From Zunongwangia sp. ESRF-bin46 (GTDB lineage Bacteria > Bacteroidota > Bacteroidia > Flavobacteriales > Flavobacteriaceae), in contig NTLF01000020.1 in assembly GCA_002631855.1 (NCBI GenBank), positions 62,001-126,000 on the forward strand: DNA of 64,000 nt, written 5' to 3'. Positions 5,323 through 40,155 of this stretch are shown piece after piece (the first letter of the stretch is position 1; each line of letters starts with the position of its first letter). The translations under genes and the position numbers were made by a program. The notes under the pieces were generated by a model, which had not been told where the DNA came from, did not search any database, and was given only the letters and a program-made list of their open reading frames with translations.

Positions 5323-5652
5323 TTAAAGTTGGTCTTTTATTTTAAGCAATTCTGCTTTTACTGTTTCTAATTTACGGATAATCTCGAAACGGCTTAATGT
5401 TTTTTGTTTGTTTTCTTTTAGATGGGTTTTGGCACCTTCGAGAGTAAAGCCACGCTCTTTAACCAAGTGATAAATAAATTCCAAGTTTTTAATATCCTCT
5501 TGGGTAAATTTACGGTTTCCTTTAGCGTTTTTCTTAGGCTTTAAAGCATCAAATTCTTTTTCCCAAAAACGGATAAGCGAAGTGTTTACATCAAAAGCTT
5601 CGGCCACTTCACCTATACTGTAATATCTTTTTTCGGGTAAATCTATGTGCAT
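5323..5652 (-). CDS. MerR family transcriptional regulator
   Basis: A 109-aa MerR-type regulator. The winged-helix DNA-binding region covers residues ~8-75 (YYSIGEVAEAFDVNTSLIRFWEKEF), and a short C-terminal coiled coil should mediate dimer formation. There is no effector domain and no Cys cluster, so it is not a metal- or redox-sensing MerR of the classic kind. It lies between an M23 peptidase gene (61 bp upstream) and lemA (10 bp downstream). It may control this envelope cluster, but no operator is visible. Confidence 0.9.
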   Translation of the reverse strand: MHIDLPEKRYYSIGEVAEAFDVNTSLIRFWEKEFDALKPKKNAKGNRKFTQEDIKNLEFIYHLVKERGFTLEGAKTHLKENKQKTLSRFEIIRKLETVKAELLKIKDQL

Positions 5653-10502: not shown

Positions 10503-10550
10503 ATAGGGCAATTGCCGTATTGATTAAAGTTGGGTTCTGCCACATCTTTG
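10503..10550 (+). promoter_or_regulatory. Palindrome-controlled promoter, site 1 (lipoprotein gene)
   Basis: Palindrome ATAGGGCAATTGCCGTAT at 10503-10520 (one mismatch between arms), exactly 22 bp before the -7-like CATCTTTG at 10543-10550. The start codon of the lipoprotein gene is at 10581. The same arrangement occurs at three other promoters within the next 5 kb. Confidence 0.85.
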
Positions 10551-10580
10551 TAGCATACAATAACCAAAAACCCAACAATT

Positions 10581-11093
10581 ATGAAAACGTTAAAAACTAT
10601 TTCTTTAATTCTATTTGTAAGCATATCATTAATAGCCTGTAAAAGTGATGATGATGGTGGTGATGGTGGTAACGCCGGAGAAGGATTAGTTACTGCAAAA
10701 GTGAATGGAAATAACTTTAAATCTATGGAAGCAGCTTCTACTGCTGTAAAAACACAAGCAAACGGTATGACTACTTTACGCGCACAAGGTTCAGATAGCG
10801 ATGGTAAGGGTGTTGTATTAACCATTATTGGATATGAAGGAACCGGAAGCTATGATATTGGTGGTGGTGCTAACATATTTGTAAATGCTGTTTATACAGA
10901 GGCAAATGTTAGTGACCCAACAAATTCTCAAGCGTGGCAGGCACCTTTTGATGATACTGTAGCCGGAACTATTAGTATTTCTGAAGATACTGATAATGGT
11001 GTAAAGGGCACATTTACTTTTGAAGCTAAAAACGGGAATGATGATTCTATGGTAAATGTGACCGAGGGATCCTTCAACTTAAAATTTCAATAA
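10581..11093 (+). CDS. Asp/Gly-rich surface lipoprotein, DUF6252-like
   Basis: A 170-aa lipoprotein with Cys20 in the lipobox (LIAC), followed directly by KSDDDGGDGG, an acidic stretch like the lipoprotein export signals that send Bacteroidota lipoproteins to the cell surface. The rest is a small beta-rich domain (TAKVNGNNFKS, YDIGG, GTFTFEAKNG) resembling DUF6252 proteins. It has no predicted catalytic residues. It has its own palindrome promoter (site 1) and terminator, so it is a single-gene transcription unit in the likely regulon of the downstream two-component system. It could be a stress or nutrient-induced surface protein. Confidence 0.8.
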   Translation: MKTLKTISLILFVSISLIACKSDDDGGDGGNAGEGLVTAKVNGNNFKSMEAASTAVKTQANGMTTLRAQGSDSDGKGVVLTIIGYEGTGSYDIGGGANIFVNAVYTEANVSDPTNSQAWQAPFDDTVAGTISISEDTDNGVKGTFTFEAKNGNDDSMVNVTEGSFNLKFQ

Positions 11094-11105
11094 AGCTATA
11101 TTAAG

Positions 11106-11129
11106 AAAATCTCAAATGTTGAGGTTTTT
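11106..11129 (+). terminator. Intrinsic terminator after the lipoprotein gene
   Basis: AAAATCTCAA / TTGAGGTTTT form a 10-bp stem with one G-U pair around a 3-base loop, ending in a run of T. It starts 12 bp after the lipoprotein stop. Confidence 0.75.
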
Positions 11130-11273
11130 ACGTGGAGCCGGGAGCGGGACAATTTGTTCATCTTCCGGTTTTTTATTTTCGCACAAGCGGCAACCTTTTT
11201 TGGAATTCATTCTATTTCAGAAGATATAAAAACAATAAGAAGTTCAAGATTTCTACCTACACGGAAATGTTAA

Positions 11274-11321
11274 ATACGACAATTGCCCTATTGATAACAA
11301 AGTGGTTACGTAGCATCTTTG
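11274..11321 (+). promoter_or_regulatory. Palindrome-controlled promoter, site 2 (PQQ-propeller gene)
   Basis: ATACGACAATTGCCCTAT at 11274-11291, exactly 22 bp before CATCTTTG at 11314-11321. The start codon is at 11350. The -7 region and 5' leader also resemble site 1, as if one promoter were copied from the other. Confidence 0.85.
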
Positions 11322-11349
11322 AAACATATAATTAACTAAAACCACGATT

Positions 11350-13233
11350 ATGAAAACTTCAAAAATGTTAATCAATTGGGCTTTTTTCCTTTCAATAGGA
11401 ATAATGATAGCCACTGCACAACGTGCGGAAGAACCAAATTTTAGATACGATATCGGTGCTAAAATCAATGAAATGACCCTTACAGAAGGTGGTACAATGG
11501 TCGTTGCTACAAACGATGGTTTGGTAGGTATAAAACCGGGAAGCAGTGATTTGCTTTTTAACTTTACCGATTACGGCCGCGTAAAACCCGAAGAACTTTT
11601 CTTTGTACCACAAGCACCTTACGTAATTGTAGGGCAGACAGGTTTTGCCAGTCTTTCTACAAAAAAAGCAGTAATCGATTATATATCAGGTAAAAAACTG
11701 TTTAGCACCGAAGACAACGGCTGGAAGCAAGTAATGACCTGCGACGTGATGATGCCACAAAATAAATTAGTGGTGAGCGGCCAGCGTACTTCAAAAGAAA
11801 AATACGCCTTACAAGTAGCGGTATACGATTTAAATACTGGTAAAGAAGATTATAGATTTAATTTAACTGATCCTAACCGAGTTGGAATCGCTAAAGACTT
11901 CAGCGTAACAGGACGCCCATTGTTGTTAAAAGACCATTTAATTATTCCTACAGCGCAAGGTTTGGTTGCAAAAAAAGCTAAAACGGGCGAAACACTTTGG
12001 GAGAATAAAATGAAACGTATTAACTGGATGGTAGCCGATGAATCTGAAAAAGAAATCTATGCTTTTGAGAGTGTAAACAATGGTAGCAATACCAAAATTC
12101 ATAAAGTAGGGAGTAATGGTGCGCAACTCTGGAACGACGAACAAAAGGTAAAAGGTAGTATTGCTAATTTTGAAATATTACCCAATGGACTAGCTGTGGT
12201 TAGCAATGTTGATAATAGTGGTAAAAAAGGATTAATGAAGTTAGCTGGAGGTCGTTCAGAATCCAAAATCGCTTTTTTAAGCGCTACTAATGGCGAAGAC
12301 CTTTGGGAGAAAGCACCAAAAACAAATGGCTACGTTCAGCATTTTTACATTATGGAAGATGGTATTCTCTTTGGAATTTATGAAGGTGGAATTAATAAAA
12401 TTTCATTTGATGGAAAAACACTTTTCAAAAAACCGTTGAAGACAGGAGAAAATATTTTAACAATGGCCGACACGCCACAAGGGTTGATCTATATTACTTC
12501 GGAAGATGCAAATATCGTTAACCTTCAAAATGGAGAACAAGTTTGGAAAAAACCATTAAAATACAAAAGAGCCGATGCTGTTAGCTCAACCTATGATGCA
12601 AAAAACTCACGATATTTAATTAGTGCCGATGATGAACTTTTTGCCGTCGATGCAAACTCAGGCGAAGTATCCACTTTAGCTGAATCTAAGTTTGATGGTA
12701 AAGAGGATCCTACTCACGTTGAGGTTCGAGATGACGGTATTTTATTGACCAGTGACCAAAATATGATGTTGTTAGACTGGCAAGGTGGTAAAAGCTGGCA
12801 CGAGTATTACCGTGCACCAGGTAAAAGTGCTTTTGGGGCAATCATTGCAGGTGTAACTGCGGTGGCAACGGCAGCAACCGCAGCGGCGGCGTATAATGCA
12901 GCCAATCAAAACCGTAATAAATTAGGTGCTTATACGGATAGAGGCGAACGGTATGCCGATTTAGGTGGCGGAATGGCCATGGCAAGTGGTGCTTCAGTGG
13001 CTGAAATGTTGAAGCGTTTTAAAGCAACAGCCGCTACAAAAAATAATCAATTTGTATTGACAAAACTTGATGATGGTGTCGGCTTGGTAAAATTAAATAA
13101 AGACTCGGGCGCCAAGGAAAAAGAAATTGTCTTAAAGGACAAGAAGCCAGAATACCAAGTAGATGAAATTGCCGGAATATTATATTACAAAGCCGATAAC
13201 AATAGCATTTTTGCATACGATCTGACCAAGTAA
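11350..13233 (+). CDS. PQQ-like beta-propeller repeat protein
   Basis: A 627-aa exported protein with a signal peptide (to about residue 23, IATAQ) followed by repeated blades of the PQQ/pyrrolo-quinoline type: TGEDLWEKA-, TGETLWENK-, GEQVWKKPL- and VDANSGEVS-like turns. Such propellers may bind partners or act as scaffolds; residues for PQQ redox chemistry are not evident. Near residues 496-520 the propeller is interrupted by a Gly/Ala-rich hydrophobic segment (AIIAGVTAVATAATAAAAY), followed by an Asn- and Gly-rich linker and a short helix. It is driven by palindrome promoter site 2 and is followed by a strong terminator, so it is a single-gene unit next to the kinase/regulator pair. Confidence 0.85.
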   Translation: MKTSKMLINWAFFLSIGIMIATAQRAEEPNFRYDIGAKINEMTLTEGGTMVVATNDGLVGIKPGSSDLLFNFTDYGRVKPEELFFVPQAPYVIVGQTGFASLSTKKAVIDYISGKKLFSTEDNGWKQVMTCDVMMPQNKLVVSGQRTSKEKYALQVAVYDLNTGKEDYRFNLTDPNRVGIAKDFSVTGRPLLLKDHLIIPTAQGLVAKKAKTGETLWENKMKRINWMVADESEKEIYAFESVNNGSNTKIHKVGSNGAQLWNDEQKVKGSIANFEILPNGLAVVSNVDNSGKKGLMKLAGGRSESKIAFLSATNGEDLWEKAPKTNGYVQHFYIMEDGILFGIYEGGINKISFDGKTLFKKPLKTGENILTMADTPQGLIYITSEDANIVNLQNGEQVWKKPLKYKRADAVSSTYDAKNSRYLISADDELFAVDANSGEVSTLAESKFDGKEDPTHVEVRDDGILLTSDQNMMLLDWQGGKSWHEYYRAPGKSAFGAIIAGVTAVATAATAAAAYNAANQNRNKLGAYTDRGERYADLGGGMAMASGASVAEMLKRFKATAATKNNQFVLTKLDDGVGLVKLNKDSGAKEKEIVLKDKKPEYQVDEIAGILYYKADNNSIFAYDLTK

Positions 13234-13299
13234 ATCAAATTAGCCAACCAAGTTAGTTTCAGGCCAAACCTGATTGAGGAGCAGGTAAAGCCAATTATG

Positions 13300-13335
13300 A
13301 AACCCCGTCTTTTTTTAGATTGGGGTTTTGTTTTT
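13300..13335 (+). terminator. Intrinsic terminator after the propeller gene
   Basis: AAACCCC (13300-13306) pairs with GGGGTTT (13322-13328), with an inner TCT/AGA pairing, followed by a T-rich tract. Confidence 0.85.
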
Positions 13336-13342
13336 TAGTTAA

Positions 13343-13390
13343 ATAGGGCAATTGCCGTATGGTTTTAAAATCAGTTTCTCTGTAATTTTA
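13343..13390 (+). promoter_or_regulatory. Palindrome-controlled promoter, site 3 (79-aa membrane protein)
   Basis: ATAGGGCAATTGCCGTAT at 13343-13360 is identical to site 1. The -7-like TAATTTTA lies at 13383-13390, again after exactly 22 bp. The start codon is at 13408. Confidence 0.85.
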
Positions 13391-13407
13391 TAAAAATTGA
13401 GTTTCAC

Positions 13408-13647
13408 ATGCTTTCAGTCACAATTATATCAGCTTTTATCTTTTTAGTGACAGGGGTATTGCTTTTGTTTTATTTAAAAAATAAACAGCTTAAAAGTATA
13501 CAAGAAGAATATGTAATTCAATTAAAAATTAGGATTGAAGAAAACCAAAATCAAATCAATACTAGGAAGAGAAACTTGGCTGCCTATAATTTTTTGAAAT
13601 ACAATTTGAGTGAAGCATTGTTTATTCAGGAAAGTATTGAATTATAA
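13408..13647 (+). CDS. Small membrane protein with coiled coil, unknown function
   Basis: A 79-aa protein that I do not recognise. One transmembrane helix at residues ~4-24 (VTIISAFIFLVTGVLLLFYL) is followed by a basic, charged stretch (KNKQLKSIQEEYVIQLKIRIEENQNQ) likely to form a coiled coil. The helix-plus-KNKQLK layout resembles the membrane-exit region of the adjacent histidine kinase (YNQQKLKNRQLKKEGEL). That similarity could reflect a helper that pairs with the kinase, or only shared composition. The palindrome promoter (site 3) directly upstream supports it being a real gene of the same regulon. Confidence 0.65.
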   Translation: MLSVTIISAFIFLVTGVLLLFYLKNKQLKSIQEEYVIQLKIRIEENQNQINTRKRNLAAYNFLKYNLSEALFIQESIEL

Positions 13648-13736
13648 GTTTAATTAAAGCTCTTCATCTGTAAAATACAATTATAACTATTTCATTTACT
13701 TAAAATTAATATCTTTAGTTGAGAAAAAATTTGAAC

Positions 13737-15503
13737 ATGAAAAAAGTATTGAGTCTCATTTTTTTGGTTTCTTCAGTAGCACTTTCACAAAACAAGCAAA
13801 CTATAGACTCTATTAATAATTTATATGTTCAAGGATTAAATATTCCTAAAGACTCTCTTATAAAATTATATAAAGTCAACGCTGAGAACGCACGAAAAAT
13901 TTCCTATGAAAAAGGTACAGCCGATGCCTACTCAAAACTTTCATTAGCTTATTCCTATCAAGGGGTTTACGATAAAAGTGCACAATATGGGCTTGAGGGG
14001 GTTAAATTATATGAAAAACTAGGTCTAAATGACCAAGTAGCATACCGGTATGCTGAATTGGGCTATAGCATGAAATATAATGATATGGAAAAGGCTCAAG
14101 CCTATATGCAAAGGGGGAAATCAGTCGCTGAAGAAAATAACTATGACTCAGTTTTAAAGGACATTTACAACAATTATGGGGTTTTAAAAGAAATTCAGAA
14201 CCAACTGGATAGCGCCCTTTATTTTTATAACAAGGGATTAAAAATTAAAAAAGAACAAAATGATTCCATCGGGATTCCATACAGCATAAGTAATATAGCT
14301 GGAGTTTATGGTTTGCAAAAAAAGTTTGGTAAAGCCAAAGAGTATTTTAACCAATCACTTCAAGCCCGTTTAAAAATGGAAGATTCTATCGGGATAGCAG
14401 AAAATCATACGCAAATTGGCGAAGTTTTTATGGCGGAAGAAAAATATGACGAAGCCATTTTAAATATTAAAAAATCACTGCCCATTTCACTGAAAAAAGA
14501 ATATAGAAACCTTACCCAATACAACTATAAAACCCTTTCCGATATATTTAAAAGTCAGAATAAAGCAGACTCTGCGCTATTTTATTTTGAAAAATATCTC
14601 GCTATAAAGGATAGTATTCACAACACAGAGGTTCAAAAGAAAATAGCAGAACTTTCTATTGAATATGAAACTGAAAAAAAAGAAAAAGAATTAGCAGAGC
14701 GGGAACTAGAAATAGAACAGAAAAACACACTTATTTACGGAAGTTTAGGTCTCGCTTTTCTGTTAGGATTGTTGGGCTACCTATTCTACAACCAACAAAA
14801 ACTGAAAAATCGTCAACTTAAAAAAGAAGGCGAGTTAAAAACTGCACTCGCCAAAATTGAAACACAAAACCGACTGCAAGAACAACGCCTTAGAATTTCT
14901 CGTGATTTACACGATAACATTGGCGCACAGCTTACTTTCATTATTTCGTCGATAGACAATTTGAAGTTCGGGTTGAAAAATGCTACTCAAAACACAAAAG
15001 AAAAGCTAACCAATATAAGTTCGTTCACGTCACAGACCATATACGAATTACGTGATACTATTTGGGCAATGAACAAAGAGTCCATCACTTTTGAAGACCT
15101 ACAAGCCCGCATTACCAATTTTATAAACCAAGCGAGCGCTGCATCAAAAGGGGTTGATTTTACTTTCCAGGTTTCAGAAACTATTTCAACCGAACATACT
15201 TTTACTTCGGTAGCTGGGATGAATATCTATCGTATTATACAAGAATCGGTTAACAATGCTTTGAAATATGCAGATGCAAATAACATTTCAGTCACTATTT
15301 CCGAAGAACAGAATATGTTTCTTATAACTATTTCAGACAACGGAAAGGGTTTTAACGTAACTGAAATACAACAAGGAAACGGCCTTAACAATATGAAAAA
15401 AAGAGCTCAAGATTTAGAAGGAAATATTGAGTTTCAATCTAACGTAAATAAAGGAACAAACATCGAACTTACGGTTCCGAAATATCGTTCTGTAAAAAAG
15501 TAA
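13737..15503 (+). CDS. TPR-containing sensor histidine kinase (HisKA_3 type)
   Basis: I chose ATG at 13737 (588 aa) because it starts a clean signal peptide (MKKVLSLIFLVSSVALSQ), and because a -7-like TATCTTTA at 13710-13717 would put transcription start after the in-frame TTG at 13719. A periplasmic tetratricopeptide region spans ~25-270, then a coiled coil and one transmembrane helix (~328-348). The HisKA_3 phosphoacceptor segment RISRDLHDNIGAQ and an HATPase_c domain with N box ESVNNALKYA, G1 SDNGKGF and G2 GNGLNNMKKRA complete it. It should phosphorylate the LuxR-type regulator 70 bp downstream. No input ligand can be inferred. Confidence 0.92.
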   Translation: MKKVLSLIFLVSSVALSQNKQTIDSINNLYVQGLNIPKDSLIKLYKVNAENARKISYEKGTADAYSKLSLAYSYQGVYDKSAQYGLEGVKLYEKLGLNDQVAYRYAELGYSMKYNDMEKAQAYMQRGKSVAEENNYDSVLKDIYNNYGVLKEIQNQLDSALYFYNKGLKIKKEQNDSIGIPYSISNIAGVYGLQKKFGKAKEYFNQSLQARLKMEDSIGIAENHTQIGEVFMAEEKYDEAILNIKKSLPISLKKEYRNLTQYNYKTLSDIFKSQNKADSALFYFEKYLAIKDSIHNTEVQKKIAELSIEYETEKKEKELAERELEIEQKNTLIYGSLGLAFLLGLLGYLFYNQQKLKNRQLKKEGELKTALAKIETQNRLQEQRLRISRDLHDNIGAQLTFIISSIDNLKFGLKNATQNTKEKLTNISSFTSQTIYELRDTIWAMNKESITFEDLQARITNFINQASAASKGVDFTFQVSETISTEHTFTSVAGMNIYRIIQESVNNALKYADANNISVTISEEQNMFLITISDNGKGFNVTEIQQGNGLNNMKKRAQDLEGNIEFQSNVNKGTNIELTVPKYRSVKK

Positions 15504-15547
15504 GGCAACTGCCCTATATTTTTTAAGGTCATAATTACATACTTTTA
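15500..15547 (+). promoter_or_regulatory. Palindrome-controlled promoter, site 4 (response regulator)
   Basis: GTAAGGCAACTGCCCTAT at 15500-15517, overlapping the kinase stop codon, with the -7-like TACTTTTA at 15540-15547 after exactly 22 bp. The regulator start codon is at 15574. This is the most divergent of the four copies (outer base and one central base differ) and suggests autoregulation. Confidence 0.75.
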
Positions 15548-15573: not shown

Positions 15574-16224
15574 ATGAACATTAAAGTTTCTATTGTTGAT
15601 GATAATTCGTTTTTAATTCATGCCATTAAAGAAAAACTCTCTTTTTTTGATGAAATTGAAATAAAGCATACTGCTCTTAACGGAAGTGAATTACTTACTA
15701 AGTTAGAAGAAAACCATAATCTTGACATTATTTTAATGGATATTGAAATGCCCGTGTTAAACGGCATTGAAACCACGCAAATGGTGAAACAAAAATATCC
15801 ACAAATTAAAATTATCATGCTTACGGCTTTCGATAATGACGAACATATTTTTAACGCGATAAAAGCCGGTGCCGATGGCTATCTTTTAAAAGAAATAAAC
15901 CCAGAAGAGCTCTATAAAGGAATAAAAGAAACTTTATCTGGCGGAGCTGCTATGAATCCTTCCATAGCATTAAAGACCTTAAAACTGTTACGGAATCCTA
16001 TTGATATTGATAATTTAAAGGACAAGGAAGAAATTTCATTGTCAAAACGGGAAGTAGAAGTTTTAGAGCAATTAAGTAAAGGCCTTAGTTATACTGCCAT
16101 TGCAGATAATCTTTTTCTTTCACCAAGCACGGTTCGTAAGCATATTGAAAATAGTTACAAAAAATTACAAGTACACAGCAAAATAGAAGCTGTACAAAAA
16201 GCCAAACGGCATAATATTATTTAA
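15574..16224 (+). CDS. Response regulator, NarL/FixJ (LuxR) type
   Basis: A 216-aa response regulator. The receiver domain has the acidic pair VDDN at 9-10, phosphoacceptor Asp56 (ILMDIEMP), Thr in LTAFD and Lys in LLKEINP. The C-terminal LuxR helix-turn-helix at ~148-210 includes LSKREVEVLEQLSKG and LFLSPSTVRKHIENSYKKL. It follows the histidine kinase on the same strand and is the obvious partner. The palindrome with dyad symmetry at four nearby promoters, including its own, fits a dimeric LuxR-type output domain. I infer it is a transcriptional activator because the palindrome lies just upstream of the -33 region. Confidence 0.95.
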   Translation: MNIKVSIVDDNSFLIHAIKEKLSFFDEIEIKHTALNGSELLTKLEENHNLDIILMDIEMPVLNGIETTQMVKQKYPQIKIIMLTAFDNDEHIFNAIKAGADGYLLKEINPEELYKGIKETLSGGAAMNPSIALKTLKLLRNPIDIDNLKDKEEISLSKREVEVLEQLSKGLSYTAIADNLFLSPSTVRKHIENSYKKLQVHSKIEAVQKAKRHNII

Positions 16225-16351: not shown

Positions 16352-17263
16352 ATGAAAAAGCTTTTAATACTTGCACTATCTACCGTAATTTTTGCTTGCA
16401 GTAGTGATGATGATAATGCACAGGTAATTAATAACCCTCAAACCCCAGGTTTGGCTTATGCAGTAAGCGATACAGATTTTACGACAACCTACAATTCATT
16501 GCGAAGTGAATTACAGACAAATTCAAATATTTCGATAGTAGCCGAAGTAAATCATACGGCAAATGCCCAAAGTACTGATGAAACTTTAAGGGATACAAGA
16601 GTTATAATGTTCGGAAACCCCGCTTTAGGAACCCCTCTAATGCAAGAAAATCAATTGGCTGGGTTAGATTTACCTCAAAAAATGTTGGTTTATGAAGATT
16701 CAGACAAGAATACCTTTGTCACTTACAATGGGACAGAATATTTAGCCGCAAGACATTCAGGAGTTGGAGGAGCTTCGACGTTACAACAAATTAAAGGAGC
16801 ACTTGCCAGTTTTACTGAAAATGCTACCAATGGTTCGGTTGCAGAAAATTCTAGCACAGGAATCACCAATAAGGACGGTATTATTACCGTGGCGAGTAAT
16901 AACGATTTTAATACCACTTACAATAATTTACGAAATGCAGTTGTTGACAATTCCGCACTTTCTCTTTTCGCAGAACTGGATCACCAAGCCAATGCAGAAA
17001 CAGTGGGAATGACATTAAACCCTACTAGGGTTATAATCTTCGGAAACCCAGAATTAGGGACACCTTTAATGAAAAATTCACAAACTACTGCTATTGATTT
17101 ACCACAGAAAATATTAATTTGGGAAAAAGAAGATGGTACCGTAAATATTTCTTATAATAATCCTGATTTTCTAAGTGAAAGACACGGGATTACAGGAAAC
17201 GAAGATACACTACAACAAATTAAAAGCGCTTTAAACAATTTGGCCATAGACGCTGCAAATTAA
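16352..17263 (+). CDS. Lipoprotein with two tandem DUF302 domains
   Basis: A 303-aa lipoprotein starting at ATG 16352 (Cys16, VIFAC, then SSDDD, an acidic surface-export-like tag); a TTG six bases earlier is less likely. It holds two copies of the DUF302 domain, about residues 35-155 and 175-300. Each has the family blocks (AEVNHTANAQS / AELDHQANAET), RVIMFGNPALGTPLM / RVIIFGNPELGTPLM and LPQKMLVYED / LPQKILIWEK. DUF302 proteins bind or process small ligands in unknown ways. It lies next to the two-component system but no palindrome site is seen upstream. Its stop overlaps the convergent amidase stop. Confidence 0.88.
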   Translation: MKKLLILALSTVIFACSSDDDNAQVINNPQTPGLAYAVSDTDFTTTYNSLRSELQTNSNISIVAEVNHTANAQSTDETLRDTRVIMFGNPALGTPLMQENQLAGLDLPQKMLVYEDSDKNTFVTYNGTEYLAARHSGVGGASTLQQIKGALASFTENATNGSVAENSSTGITNKDGIITVASNNDFNTTYNNLRNAVVDNSALSLFAELDHQANAETVGMTLNPTRVIIFGNPELGTPLMKNSQTTAIDLPQKILIWEKEDGTVNISYNNPDFLSERHGITGNEDTLQQIKSALNNLAIDAAN

Positions 17264-20281: not shown

Positions 20282-20403
20282 AAGATTTGACGAACGCGTC
20301 GAAGGAAGTTTACACTGCCTTTAGCATTTTTTAATCTGAAATTTTTTAACTGAAAATAGTATTCAAAAAAATATTCAGAAGAGGTTGCAATCAGTCAAAT
20401 CTT
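20282..20403 (-). promoter_or_regulatory. Core-sequestering expression platform of the metK riboswitch
   Basis: AAGATTTGAC inside the aptamer (20394-20403 on the plus strand as its complement) has a perfect 10-bp complement, GTCAAATCTT, downstream of the aptamer (20282-20291). Forming this helix would destroy the SAM-binding core, so the two folds are mutually exclusive. Confidence 0.7.
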
Positions 20404-20410
20404 TCCTCTT
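20313..20410 (-). promoter_or_regulatory. SAM-II-like riboswitch (long-loop form) in the metK leader
   Basis: Read on the minus strand. P1 is AAGAGG (20405-20410) with CCTCTT (20379-20384). The loop between holds GATTTGACTGATTGCAA, which matches the SAM-II core GAUUU...UUGCAA. The 3' conserved part AATGCTAAAGGCAGTG is at 20313-20328. A pseudoknot forms by ACTG with CAGT and GCA with TGC, flanking the UAAA that lines the SAM-II site. The 50-nt AT-rich linker between P1 and the 3' strand is longer than in alphaproteobacterial SAM-II, as in the described long-loop variants. Confidence 0.82.
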
Positions 20411-20418
20411 TCAGCGGA

Positions 20419-20512: not shown

Positions 20513-20542
20513 TACTCACAAAGTTCAAATCTTTATTGAAAT

Positions 20543-20659
20543 GTTATCAAGAAAGGCTGAGGGAATAGACCCTATGAAGCCTTAGCAACCCTTTCACTTG
20601 AAAGAAGGTGCTACATTCTACAAAAATGTCCAAATATTGGAAATTTTTTGATAGATAAC
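20543..20659 (+). promoter_or_regulatory. SAM-I riboswitch (S-box) upstream of metY
   Basis: P1 is GTTATC (20543-20548) with GATAAC (20654-20659). Conserved S-box blocks follow in order: AAGAAAGGCTGAGGGA, ACCCTATGAAGCC, TTAGCAACC and AAGGTGCTACATTC. The region 20254-20778 has no gene; it holds this element, the metK SAM-II-like leader and both promoters. A short A/T hairpin (20666-20683) follows P1 and may belong to the expression platform. When SAM is abundant, metY and perhaps the genes behind it should be turned down. Confidence 0.95.
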
Positions 20660-20778
20660 GACAAGACAATTTTTTAAAATTGTTTACTCACTTCTTAATA
20701 ACATTTTTCTTATAAAGTACGCCAATAGGCGCATTTTGACTTTTGGTTTAATTTATTATTAACTCAAAAAAAAGAAAA

Positions 20779-39702: not shown

Positions 39703-40155
39703 ATGCGAATTGTACTGCAACGTGTTAAAGAAGCTTCTGTAACAGTAGAGGGTAAAGTTGTTTCAAAAATAGGACAGGGTTTCCTCATTTTATTGGGTAT
39801 TGAAGCTGAAGACACACAGGAAGATATAGATTGGTTGTGTAGAAAAGTAGCAAGATTACGCGTTTTTTCAGATGAAAATGAAAATATGAACTATTCCATT
39901 CAAGACATAGATGGTGAAGTTATAGTGGTAAGTCAATTTACTTTACACGCCAGTACCAAAAAAGGAAACAGACCCTCTTTTATAAAAGCTGCAAGGCCAG
40001 ATGTGGCAATTCCGTTATATGAAAATTTTCTTAAAACATTAGAAAAAGAACTTGGCAAAAGTGTACAAAGTGGTGTTTTTGGTGCTATGATGGATGTTTT
40101 GTTAATTAACGATGGGCCGGTTACAATTACGATTGATTCAAAAAATAAAGAATAA
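39703..40155 (+). CDS. dtd: D-aminoacyl-tRNA deacylase
   Basis: A 150-aa Dtd. The N-terminus MRIVLQRVKEASVTV, the active-site SQFTL segment, and the C-terminal NDGPVTI motif mark the family; FGAMMDVLLINDG is also typical. It removes D-amino acids (and glycine from tRNA-Ala) from mischarged tRNA in the cytoplasm. It is 5 bp after rsgA and so co-transcribed. Confidence 0.97.
   Translation: MRIVLQRVKEASVTVEGKVVSKIGQGFLILLGIEAEDTQEDIDWLCRKVARLRVFSDENENMNYSIQDIDGEVIVVSQFTLHASTKKGNRPSFIKAARPDVAIPLYENFLKTLEKELGKSVQSGVFGAMMDVLLINDGPVTITIDSKNKE

Follow-up and report, generated by a model that had tools for sequence, protein, structure and literature searches.

An autoregulated two-component regulon is proposed here for a stretch of 64,000 nucleotides from Zunongwangia sp. 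ESRF-bin46, a member of the Flavobacteriaceae (GenBank assembly GCA_002631855.1, contig NTLF01000020.1, positions 62,001 to 126,000), which is called the window. Four copies of an 18-bp palindrome found there are, with a probability that we put at roughly 0.8, bound as operators by a NarL-type response regulator whose gene lies in the same island (15574-16224). This regulator would activate, in the manner of a class II activator, its own gene, the operon of a 79-amino-acid (79-aa) membrane protein and a tetratricopeptide repeat (TPR) histidine kinase, and the genes of a lipoprotein and of a PQQ-type beta-propeller protein. The comparisons reported below support the putative operator, its spacing and orientation, its targets, the autoregulatory arrangement and the co-occurrence of regulator and operator.

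Putative operators in the window and in the host genome

The palindrome ATAnGGCAATTGCCnTAT (18 bp) occurs on the + strand at 10503, 11274, 13343 and 15500, with 0, 1, 0 and 2 mismatches, respectively. These positions, first proposed in a sequence-only reading of the window, were confirmed by a rescan. The exact 22-bp gap claimed between palindrome and -7-like element holds at all four promoters (Table 1), and the start codons, placed by that reading 47-60 bp past the palindrome, lie 60, 58, 47 and 56 bp after operators 1 to 4. Each of the four -7-like octamers is one mismatch away from TAnnTTTG, and no better octamer is present at these sites at any gap from 15 to 30 bp. The final T of operator 1 and the TG that follows it (10520-10522) form a -33-like TTG, while operator 4 overlaps the 3' end of the kinase gene, which stops at 15503. 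Scans for sigma70 promoters and for terminators gave counts that were not above those of shuffles.

The palindrome was searched for across the entire 3.33-Mb genome; the contig that holds the window is 407 kb long. Six sites have at most two mismatches and four of them are the window promoters, so that the motif did not turn out to be common genome-wide. The other two lie within genes that by eye resemble those of a P-type ATPase and of YidC, and the -7 element is absent at 22 bp from both. At up to three mismatches 38 sites are found versus 30 for the backwards pattern, and such matches are therefore noise. A wider search for operators in the same genome, again with up to three mismatches, yielded no more sites than the backwards control did (18+14 versus 22+21), so that weaker members of the regulon are uncallable by such a search; the genome shows four operator sites only. 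Note that the window matches with three mismatches, 16554 and 40001, are at chance level (mean of 0.48 matches per window in shuffles). The match at 16554, which sits within the DUF302 gene, and C9:30429, C2:256981, C12:280337 (L278) and C18:224882 (L280) in other parts of the genome all lie within open reading frames (ORFs); like the one with three mismatches at 40001, they were rejected as chance matches.

Conservation of the site and of its spacing

The regulator was searched for at E<=1e-40 in 149 genomes of the window's family and found in 45, and the 44 family loci are the regulator loci of these 45 genomes except the window's own; the 80 named loci are the best 80 of 429 and their source genomes overlap with those of the 44, so that the two sets are not independent. 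The gap spectra were made with a palindrome rule that is blind to the -7 box, its refined consensus having come from sites first chosen with the box. Perfect NANNTTTR boxes, scored at gaps of 14-31 bp, number 70 at 22 bp in the 44 family loci, with 7 at 21 bp, 5 at 23 bp and 0-4 elsewhere. Among the 191 palindromes with at most two mismatches in the 80 loci, 162 have a perfect box at gap 22; at the other gaps of the same range there are 17 boxes at 31 bp, 6 at 29, 4 at 21, 3 at 16, 3 at 23 and 1 at 24. The reverse strand of the 80 loci has 2 boxes at gap 22, and first-order resampling gave 0 in 20 of 20 sets versus the 162 observed, which upholds the earlier remark that chance hardly explains the invariant spacing.

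The motif is also present in the orthologous islands, where its absence would have spoken against a regulon: a site was found in 76 of the 80 loci, and 73 loci have one linked to a gene that is homologous to one of the window's. Counting only sites with a palindrome of at most four mismatches and a -7 box at 22 bp, on which these numbers are conditional, and including the window, the target is the lipoprotein gene at 59 sites, the 79-aa gene at 39, the propeller gene at 35, the regulator gene at 29, the kinase gene at 4, and another or no ORF at 32. The regulator homologs of close relatives, some named Marixanthomonas, are 96-100% identical to that of the window, which places its genome within or beside this genus. 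Homologs of GSCFA, of the lipoprotein or the propeller, of the kinase and of the regulator stand together in 33 of the 44 family loci, a kinase match is found in 43/44 and alaS in 31/44. Judged from these loci, the regulatory arrangement is old and conserved.

Promoter classes and proposed mechanism

The conserved sites fall into two kinds of promoter. At the lipoprotein and propeller genes TG directly follows the palindrome (53/59 and 33/35 promoters), whose final base completes a -33 TTG; the -7 box starts with C (53/59; 32/35) and ends with G (58/59; 32/35). At the 79-aa/kinase and regulator genes the box starts with T (35/39; 25/29) and ends with A (35/39; 27/29), TG after the palindrome being found at 3 sites each. 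These boxes are a variant of the sigmaA type. A Flavobacterium study places the sigmaA -7 box at -12 to -5 (PMC9723704); with the 22-bp gap the operator would therefore extend from about -52 to -35, with its centre at -43.5. The geometry is of class II, with a predicted centre near -40 to -45, a site that abuts or replaces the -33/-35 element, and constant spacing. At -43.5 the centre would stand where activators of class II bind.

In the proposed mechanism a stimulus, possibly the envelope signal suggested by the sequence-only reading, would act on the neighbouring TPR histidine kinase, the presumed partner of the regulator, and lead to phosphorylation of the latter. The phosphorylated regulator would dimerise, bind directly to the 18-bp inverted repeat and, in the way of class II activators, recruit RNA polymerase with sigmaA. 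At its effector targets (lipoprotein, propeller) it would meet a weak box, CAnnTTTG, and a -33 TTG in contact with the operator; at its regulatory targets (the regulator gene and the 79-aa/kinase operon, whose two genes are probably co-transcribed) it would act on a TAnnTTTA box with no TTG, leading to positive autoregulation.

The same protein might bind the palindrome and repress, its dimer, phosphorylated or not, blocking RNA polymerase until the signal relieves the block, with negative autoregulation as the outcome. Steric exclusion is conceivable because the site lies right against the -33 region, sharing its last base with the TTG of effector promoters. The positions of repressor sites usually vary, however, and the single spacing kept in 162 of 191 sites is what is expected for activator-dependent promoters, as is the departure of the effector -7 boxes from consensus at their first base. 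VraR and NarL, relatives of the regulator in the PDB, are known mainly as activators. Repression is accordingly improbable and we infer that the regulator activates.

Linkage of the operator to the regulator

The exact operator, followed after 22 bp by a -7 box, is present in 25 of the 149 family genomes (backwards control 0) and the regulator in 45. All 25 operator-bearing genomes are among these 45, and none of the 104 without the regulator has the operator (Fisher p 2e-16, ignoring kinship). The association extends beyond the family. In family f7, whose regulators have 47-52% identity to that of the window, a palindrome lies within the locus at 8/8 regulator loci read (L302-L309). In L304-L309, whose regulators are 47-51% identical, it stands 44-57 nt upstream of the regulator start codon, compared to 56 in the window, and L306, L308 and L309 carry a single mismatch there, either in the palindrome or in the -7 box; in L302 and L303 it is on the opposite strand, beyond the regulator gene. 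In the order-level sample the exact operator was found in 14/196 genomes, and 11 of the 13 besides the window's have a regulator match at E<=1e-35. The cross-family linkage is the strongest evidence that the regulator owns the site. The sequence-only reading had named the LuxR-type regulator as the likely binder, a proposal favoured by the co-occurrence (25/25 and 0/104) and by the site before the regulator gene in another family; this protein is by far the likeliest candidate.

A different DNA-binding protein encoded elsewhere could own the palindrome, the island being then a cluster of its targets. Candidates are not scarce: first-look matches count up to 74 candidate paralogs of the regulator per genome among the rows listed, a MerR-type gene lies at 5323-5652 of the window, and related ATACG-N8-CGTAT operators serve other genes. 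Against such an owner, the exact operator never occurs without this regulator in the 149 family genomes and in more than one family the site precedes the gene of the regulator itself, which leaves it a slim chance. Pfam scans of seven island proteins show a DNA-binding domain in the regulator alone.

Several observations weigh against ownership of the site by the NarL-type regulator, or limit it. Of the 45 family genomes with the regulator, 20 lack the exact operator pattern; many have a variant centre, and a looser rule recovered a candidate in 23 of 26 rescanned loci and none in L099, L122 and L124. The arms alone (ATACG-N8-CGTAT, same spacing) are found in 71/149 genomes, more than have the regulator, and among the matches listed they often serve other genes, so that the tie to the regulator holds for operators with inner CA..TG only. 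At the order level G173 and G263 carry the operator with no regulator match at E<=1e-35. Conversely, among 17 genomes picked for lacking the exact operator, nine have a regulator match, five at only 36-42% identity; G220 and G259, which are among the nine, have a near-match to the operator before the regulator. In a third family (f5, L301) no site is found within 1.5 kb of the regulator. Some extra-locus sites fit poorly, being next to a xerD-like gene (L176) or having no close gene (L185). Finally, the counts take in relatives of shared ancestry and are uncorrected for it.

That the palindrome is a mobile or structural repeat or an RNA hairpin, or an extended promoter for an alternative sigma factor, is very improbable: near-identical 18-mers do recur within 5 kb, but the flanks are unrelated between sites, neither spacing nor orientation varies, and the predicted start comes after the element, which is hence outside the RNA it would control. 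For these reasons the mobile repeat and the hairpin were rejected. The -7 box, in turn, is a sigmaA-type variant.

Operator variants and the recognition helix

Two forms of the operator were distinguished. Close relatives keep the inner CA..TG and vary at one base of the arms; a second clade has perfect arms, ATACG...CGTAT, around a different centre. Regulators with Ser185 go with inner CA..TG (153/158 sites) and those with Gly185 with perfect outer arms (29/30), in a tally of sites that have an ORF. In the recognition helix R188 and K189 are invariant in the 77/77 rows grouped by operator type; these are 77 of the 81 regulator rows, the loci L216, L242, L251 and L270 having been set aside for want of a site. 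The Gly185 rows form one clade (support 100/99), so that the switch to Gly185 is one event. The site rule itself favours both operator forms, and in f7 two Gly185 regulators depart from the pattern, L309 with a full CA..TG site and L308 with half of such a site. Because of this bias, the single clade and these exceptions, residue 185, at the start of the recognition helix, is kept as a lead and is only suggestive as the cause of the operator type. The 79-aa gene has a site in 35 of the 53 loci with Ser185 regulators versus 0 of the 27 with Gly185.

Genes of the island

The coordinates of the operators and genes are given in Table 1.

Table 1. Operators, -7-like elements and genes of the proposed regulon and its surroundings in the window
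Feature	Position	Strand	Basis
Putative operator 1, palindrome ATAGGGCAATTGCCGTAT	10503..10520	+	pattern scan
-7-like element CATCTTTG of operator 1, effector class CAnnTTTG	10543..10550	+	22 bp after palindrome
Putative operator 2, palindrome ATACGACAATTGCCCTAT	11274..11291	+	pattern scan
-7-like element CATCTTTG of operator 2	11314..11321	+	22 bp after palindrome
Putative operator 3, palindrome ATAGGGCAATTGCCGTAT	13343..13360	+	pattern scan
-7-like element TAATTTTA of operator 3, regulatory class TAnnTTTA	13383..13390	+	22 bp after palindrome
Putative operator 4, palindrome GTAAGGCAACTGCCCTAT	15500..15517	+	pattern scan
-7-like element TACTTTTA of operator 4	15540..15547	+	22 bp after palindrome
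Lipoprotein, DUF6252; predicted all-beta domain, 11 strands, LpqH-like arrangement	10581..11093	+	Pfam, structure model
PQQ/BamB-like beta-propeller, 627 aa, signal-peptide-like start (by eye)	11350..13233	+	Pfam PQQ_2, model
79-aa protein without a Pfam family; by eye, a membrane segment followed by a coiled linker	13408..13647	+	ORF, Pfam
TPR sensor histidine kinase, 588 aa: TPR, HisKA_3 with His392, HATPase_c	13737..15503	+	Pfam
NarL/LuxR-type response regulator: receiver with Asp56, GerE helix-turn-helix; proposed binder of the palindrome	15574..16224	+	Pfam
DUF302 lipoprotein gene next to the regulator gene, downstream; lacks an operator and is not among the targets	16352..17263	+	Pfam, pattern scan
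MerR-type gene, before alaS, ~5 kb from the island	5323-5652		–

The lipoprotein is a member of DUF6252 (Pfam PF19765, 37.7 bits versus a gathering cut-off of 27.2). Its structure model (predicted local distance difference test score, pLDDT, of 88) aligns to LpqH (4zjm) in VIA-align with Z 10.7 and a root-mean-square deviation of 2.9 over 106 aligned residues of only 7% identity, and a Foldseek search with the model gave no match at E<=0.001. The propeller protein has 41-93% identity to 25 relatives; its fold search matches propellers broadly, and its model has a helical insertion of low confidence near residues 507-558. The 79-aa family shares a conserved C-terminal motif, L..Y.FL.YNL.EAL..Q (36 distinct sequences, window included). 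His392 is the H-box histidine of the kinase, whose topology by eye comprises a signal-peptide-like start, the TPR part outside and a membrane segment from about residue 331. The regulator scores 89.7 bits for Pfam Response_reg and 65.3 for GerE (cut-off 23.5), and D56, T84 and K106 of its receiver are invariant in 81/81 alignment rows. The products of the putative targets have a lipobox or signal-peptide-like amino termini, as judged by eye.

Possible wider regulon and duplicated kinases

Extra sites in relatives precede genes for products that mostly have signal-peptide-like starts (by eye). They include a papain-like protease with DUF4384 that adjoins the regulator in L234 and has look-alikes by eye in L160, L174 and L184, a MORN protein (L201), an outer-membrane protein barrel (L224), a TPR protein (L236) and an FG-GAP protein (L203) whose type IX secretion system tail is sub-threshold. 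Targets at longer distance are a CHAT-domain protein (L238) and a DUF6498 protein (L225). The former, encoded in Mesonia oceanica (L238:6286-8991), is caspase-like, carries TPR and lies downstream of an operator and directly before the regulator. In f7, the genomes G205 and G306 have five exact operator-promoters each, which are dispersed over the genome and not clustered. This suggests a larger regulon in that family.

Two TPR kinases stand beside a single regulator in 11/80 loci (L198, L201, L207, L211, L214, L226, L227 and others) and their membrane/H-box segments are near-identical. Does duplication of the kinase feed one regulator in these 11 loci? Compared by hhalign, the 79-aa protein and the membrane-coil segment of the kinase gave 81% locally, over 53 columns, and 5% globally; the likeness is only a lead because any membrane helix with a coil could give it. 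A broader reading is offered tentatively and is rather unlikely to hold in full. It is that of an old modular circuit of the Flavobacteriales with a constant regulator-operator-promoter grammar (18-bp site, 22-bp gap, separate effector and autoregulatory promoter classes), a TPR kinase that diverges or duplicates and a surface cargo that is swapped (MORN, FG-GAP, papain-like, CHAT, beta-barrel). The 79-aa protein would be its dedicated small membrane partner, resembling the membrane-coiled segment of the kinase and tuning the kinase by pairing.

Other elements

Tandem arrays of 2-3 units were met in other Flavobacteriaceae (L190-L192, L146, L149, L130, L135, L138). Each unit consists of a related palindrome (e.g. 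ATACGTAGAACTACGTAT or ATACGTAGAAGTGCGTAT), 22 bp and a -7 box. Many units continue with a 28-mer that is conserved as GCTATTAATTAGTTCTTAGGGAGAATTA or nearly so, and then with a hairpin resembling a terminator (about 70 nt, by eye). An ORF of 32-36 aa with a single membrane span comes after the final unit in most of the arrays that were read. The 28-mer pattern is found exactly in 29/149 family genomes (backwards control 0); it is absent from the window's genome, and the five loci searched gave no Rfam match. The arrays are possibly an undescribed family of small RNAs. Another type of palindrome, ATACGTGTwwGTACGTAT-like and also 22 bp from a -7 box, adjoins in L126 and L132 an opposite-strand gene that by eye resembles that of 6-phosphofructokinase. 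In the window itself, two riboswitches lie back to back, SAM-II at 20311-20414 (-) before metK (47.3 bits, gathering 44) and SAM at 20541-20661 (+) before the next gene (80.8 bits).

Comparison with known systems

A literature search of limited scope found no description of this circuit or of a comparable operator. The available text of a temperature-stress paper names phoR and phoP and has nothing on this system (PMC10663628). The FimS/FimR system of Porphyromonas gingivalis is also from the Bacteroidota. In the part of its description that was available FimR acts on genes of surface structures and binds the mfa1 promoter by electrophoretic mobility shift assay, and the terms "palindrome", "consensus" and "binding site" do not appear in the main text (PMC1974823). 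Against the NCBIfam FimS model the window kinase aligns over residues 60-546, the TPR part included; of the UhpB, NarQ, MctS, FimS and LiaS models FimS alone covers that part. The FimS score is 76.5 bits, far from the equivalog cut-off of 600, and the catalytic part scores a little above FimS with UhpB (98 bits), NarQ (82) and MctS (79), all far below their cut-offs. No fimbrial Pfam family was found among the seven window proteins scanned.

The VraSR, LiaSR and DesKR systems likewise combine a HisKA_3 kinase and a NarL-type regulator. Among solved structures the window regulator is nearest by sequence to VraR (107.7 bits), and the catalytic part of the kinase to VraS and DesK. Kinases of these systems have a small membrane sensor, whereas the window kinase has a TPR sensor domain and the putative targets are flavobacterial surface proteins; its LiaS score is 69.8 bits versus a cut-off of 450. 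Being below the curated cut-offs, the kinase is neither FimS nor LiaS. The regulator is also distinct from NarL proper (128.5 bits versus the NCBIfam equivalog cut-off of 250). Operators of NarL, LuxR and TraR, bound by a GerE-family helix-turn-helix, are inverted repeats of about 18-20 bp with an activator position near -42. The proposed operator has a similar length and position for a GerE protein, but its sequence is different and throughout a family it stays at a single distance from a -7 box of the Bacteroidota type. The propeller protein shares PQQ_2 with BamB, whose structure 3prw is at rank 37 of the Foldseek matches; it differs in its TIGR03300 score (36.1 bits versus an equivalog cut-off of 285.2), its 627 aa and its helical insertion.

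An operator at a fixed distance from a known -7 box can be read from the genomes of many genera and makes regulator, targets and start sites predictable. The system is a clean one for asking how sigmaA of the Bacteroidota, with its unusual -33/-7 promoters, gets activated, and it gives a route to surface proteins of unknown function that may act together, namely the DUF6252 lipoprotein, the propeller and the 79-aa membrane protein. On the comparative evidence the circuit is real and conserved; it is apparently undescribed and yet of a familiar type, that of the autoregulated two-component regulon.

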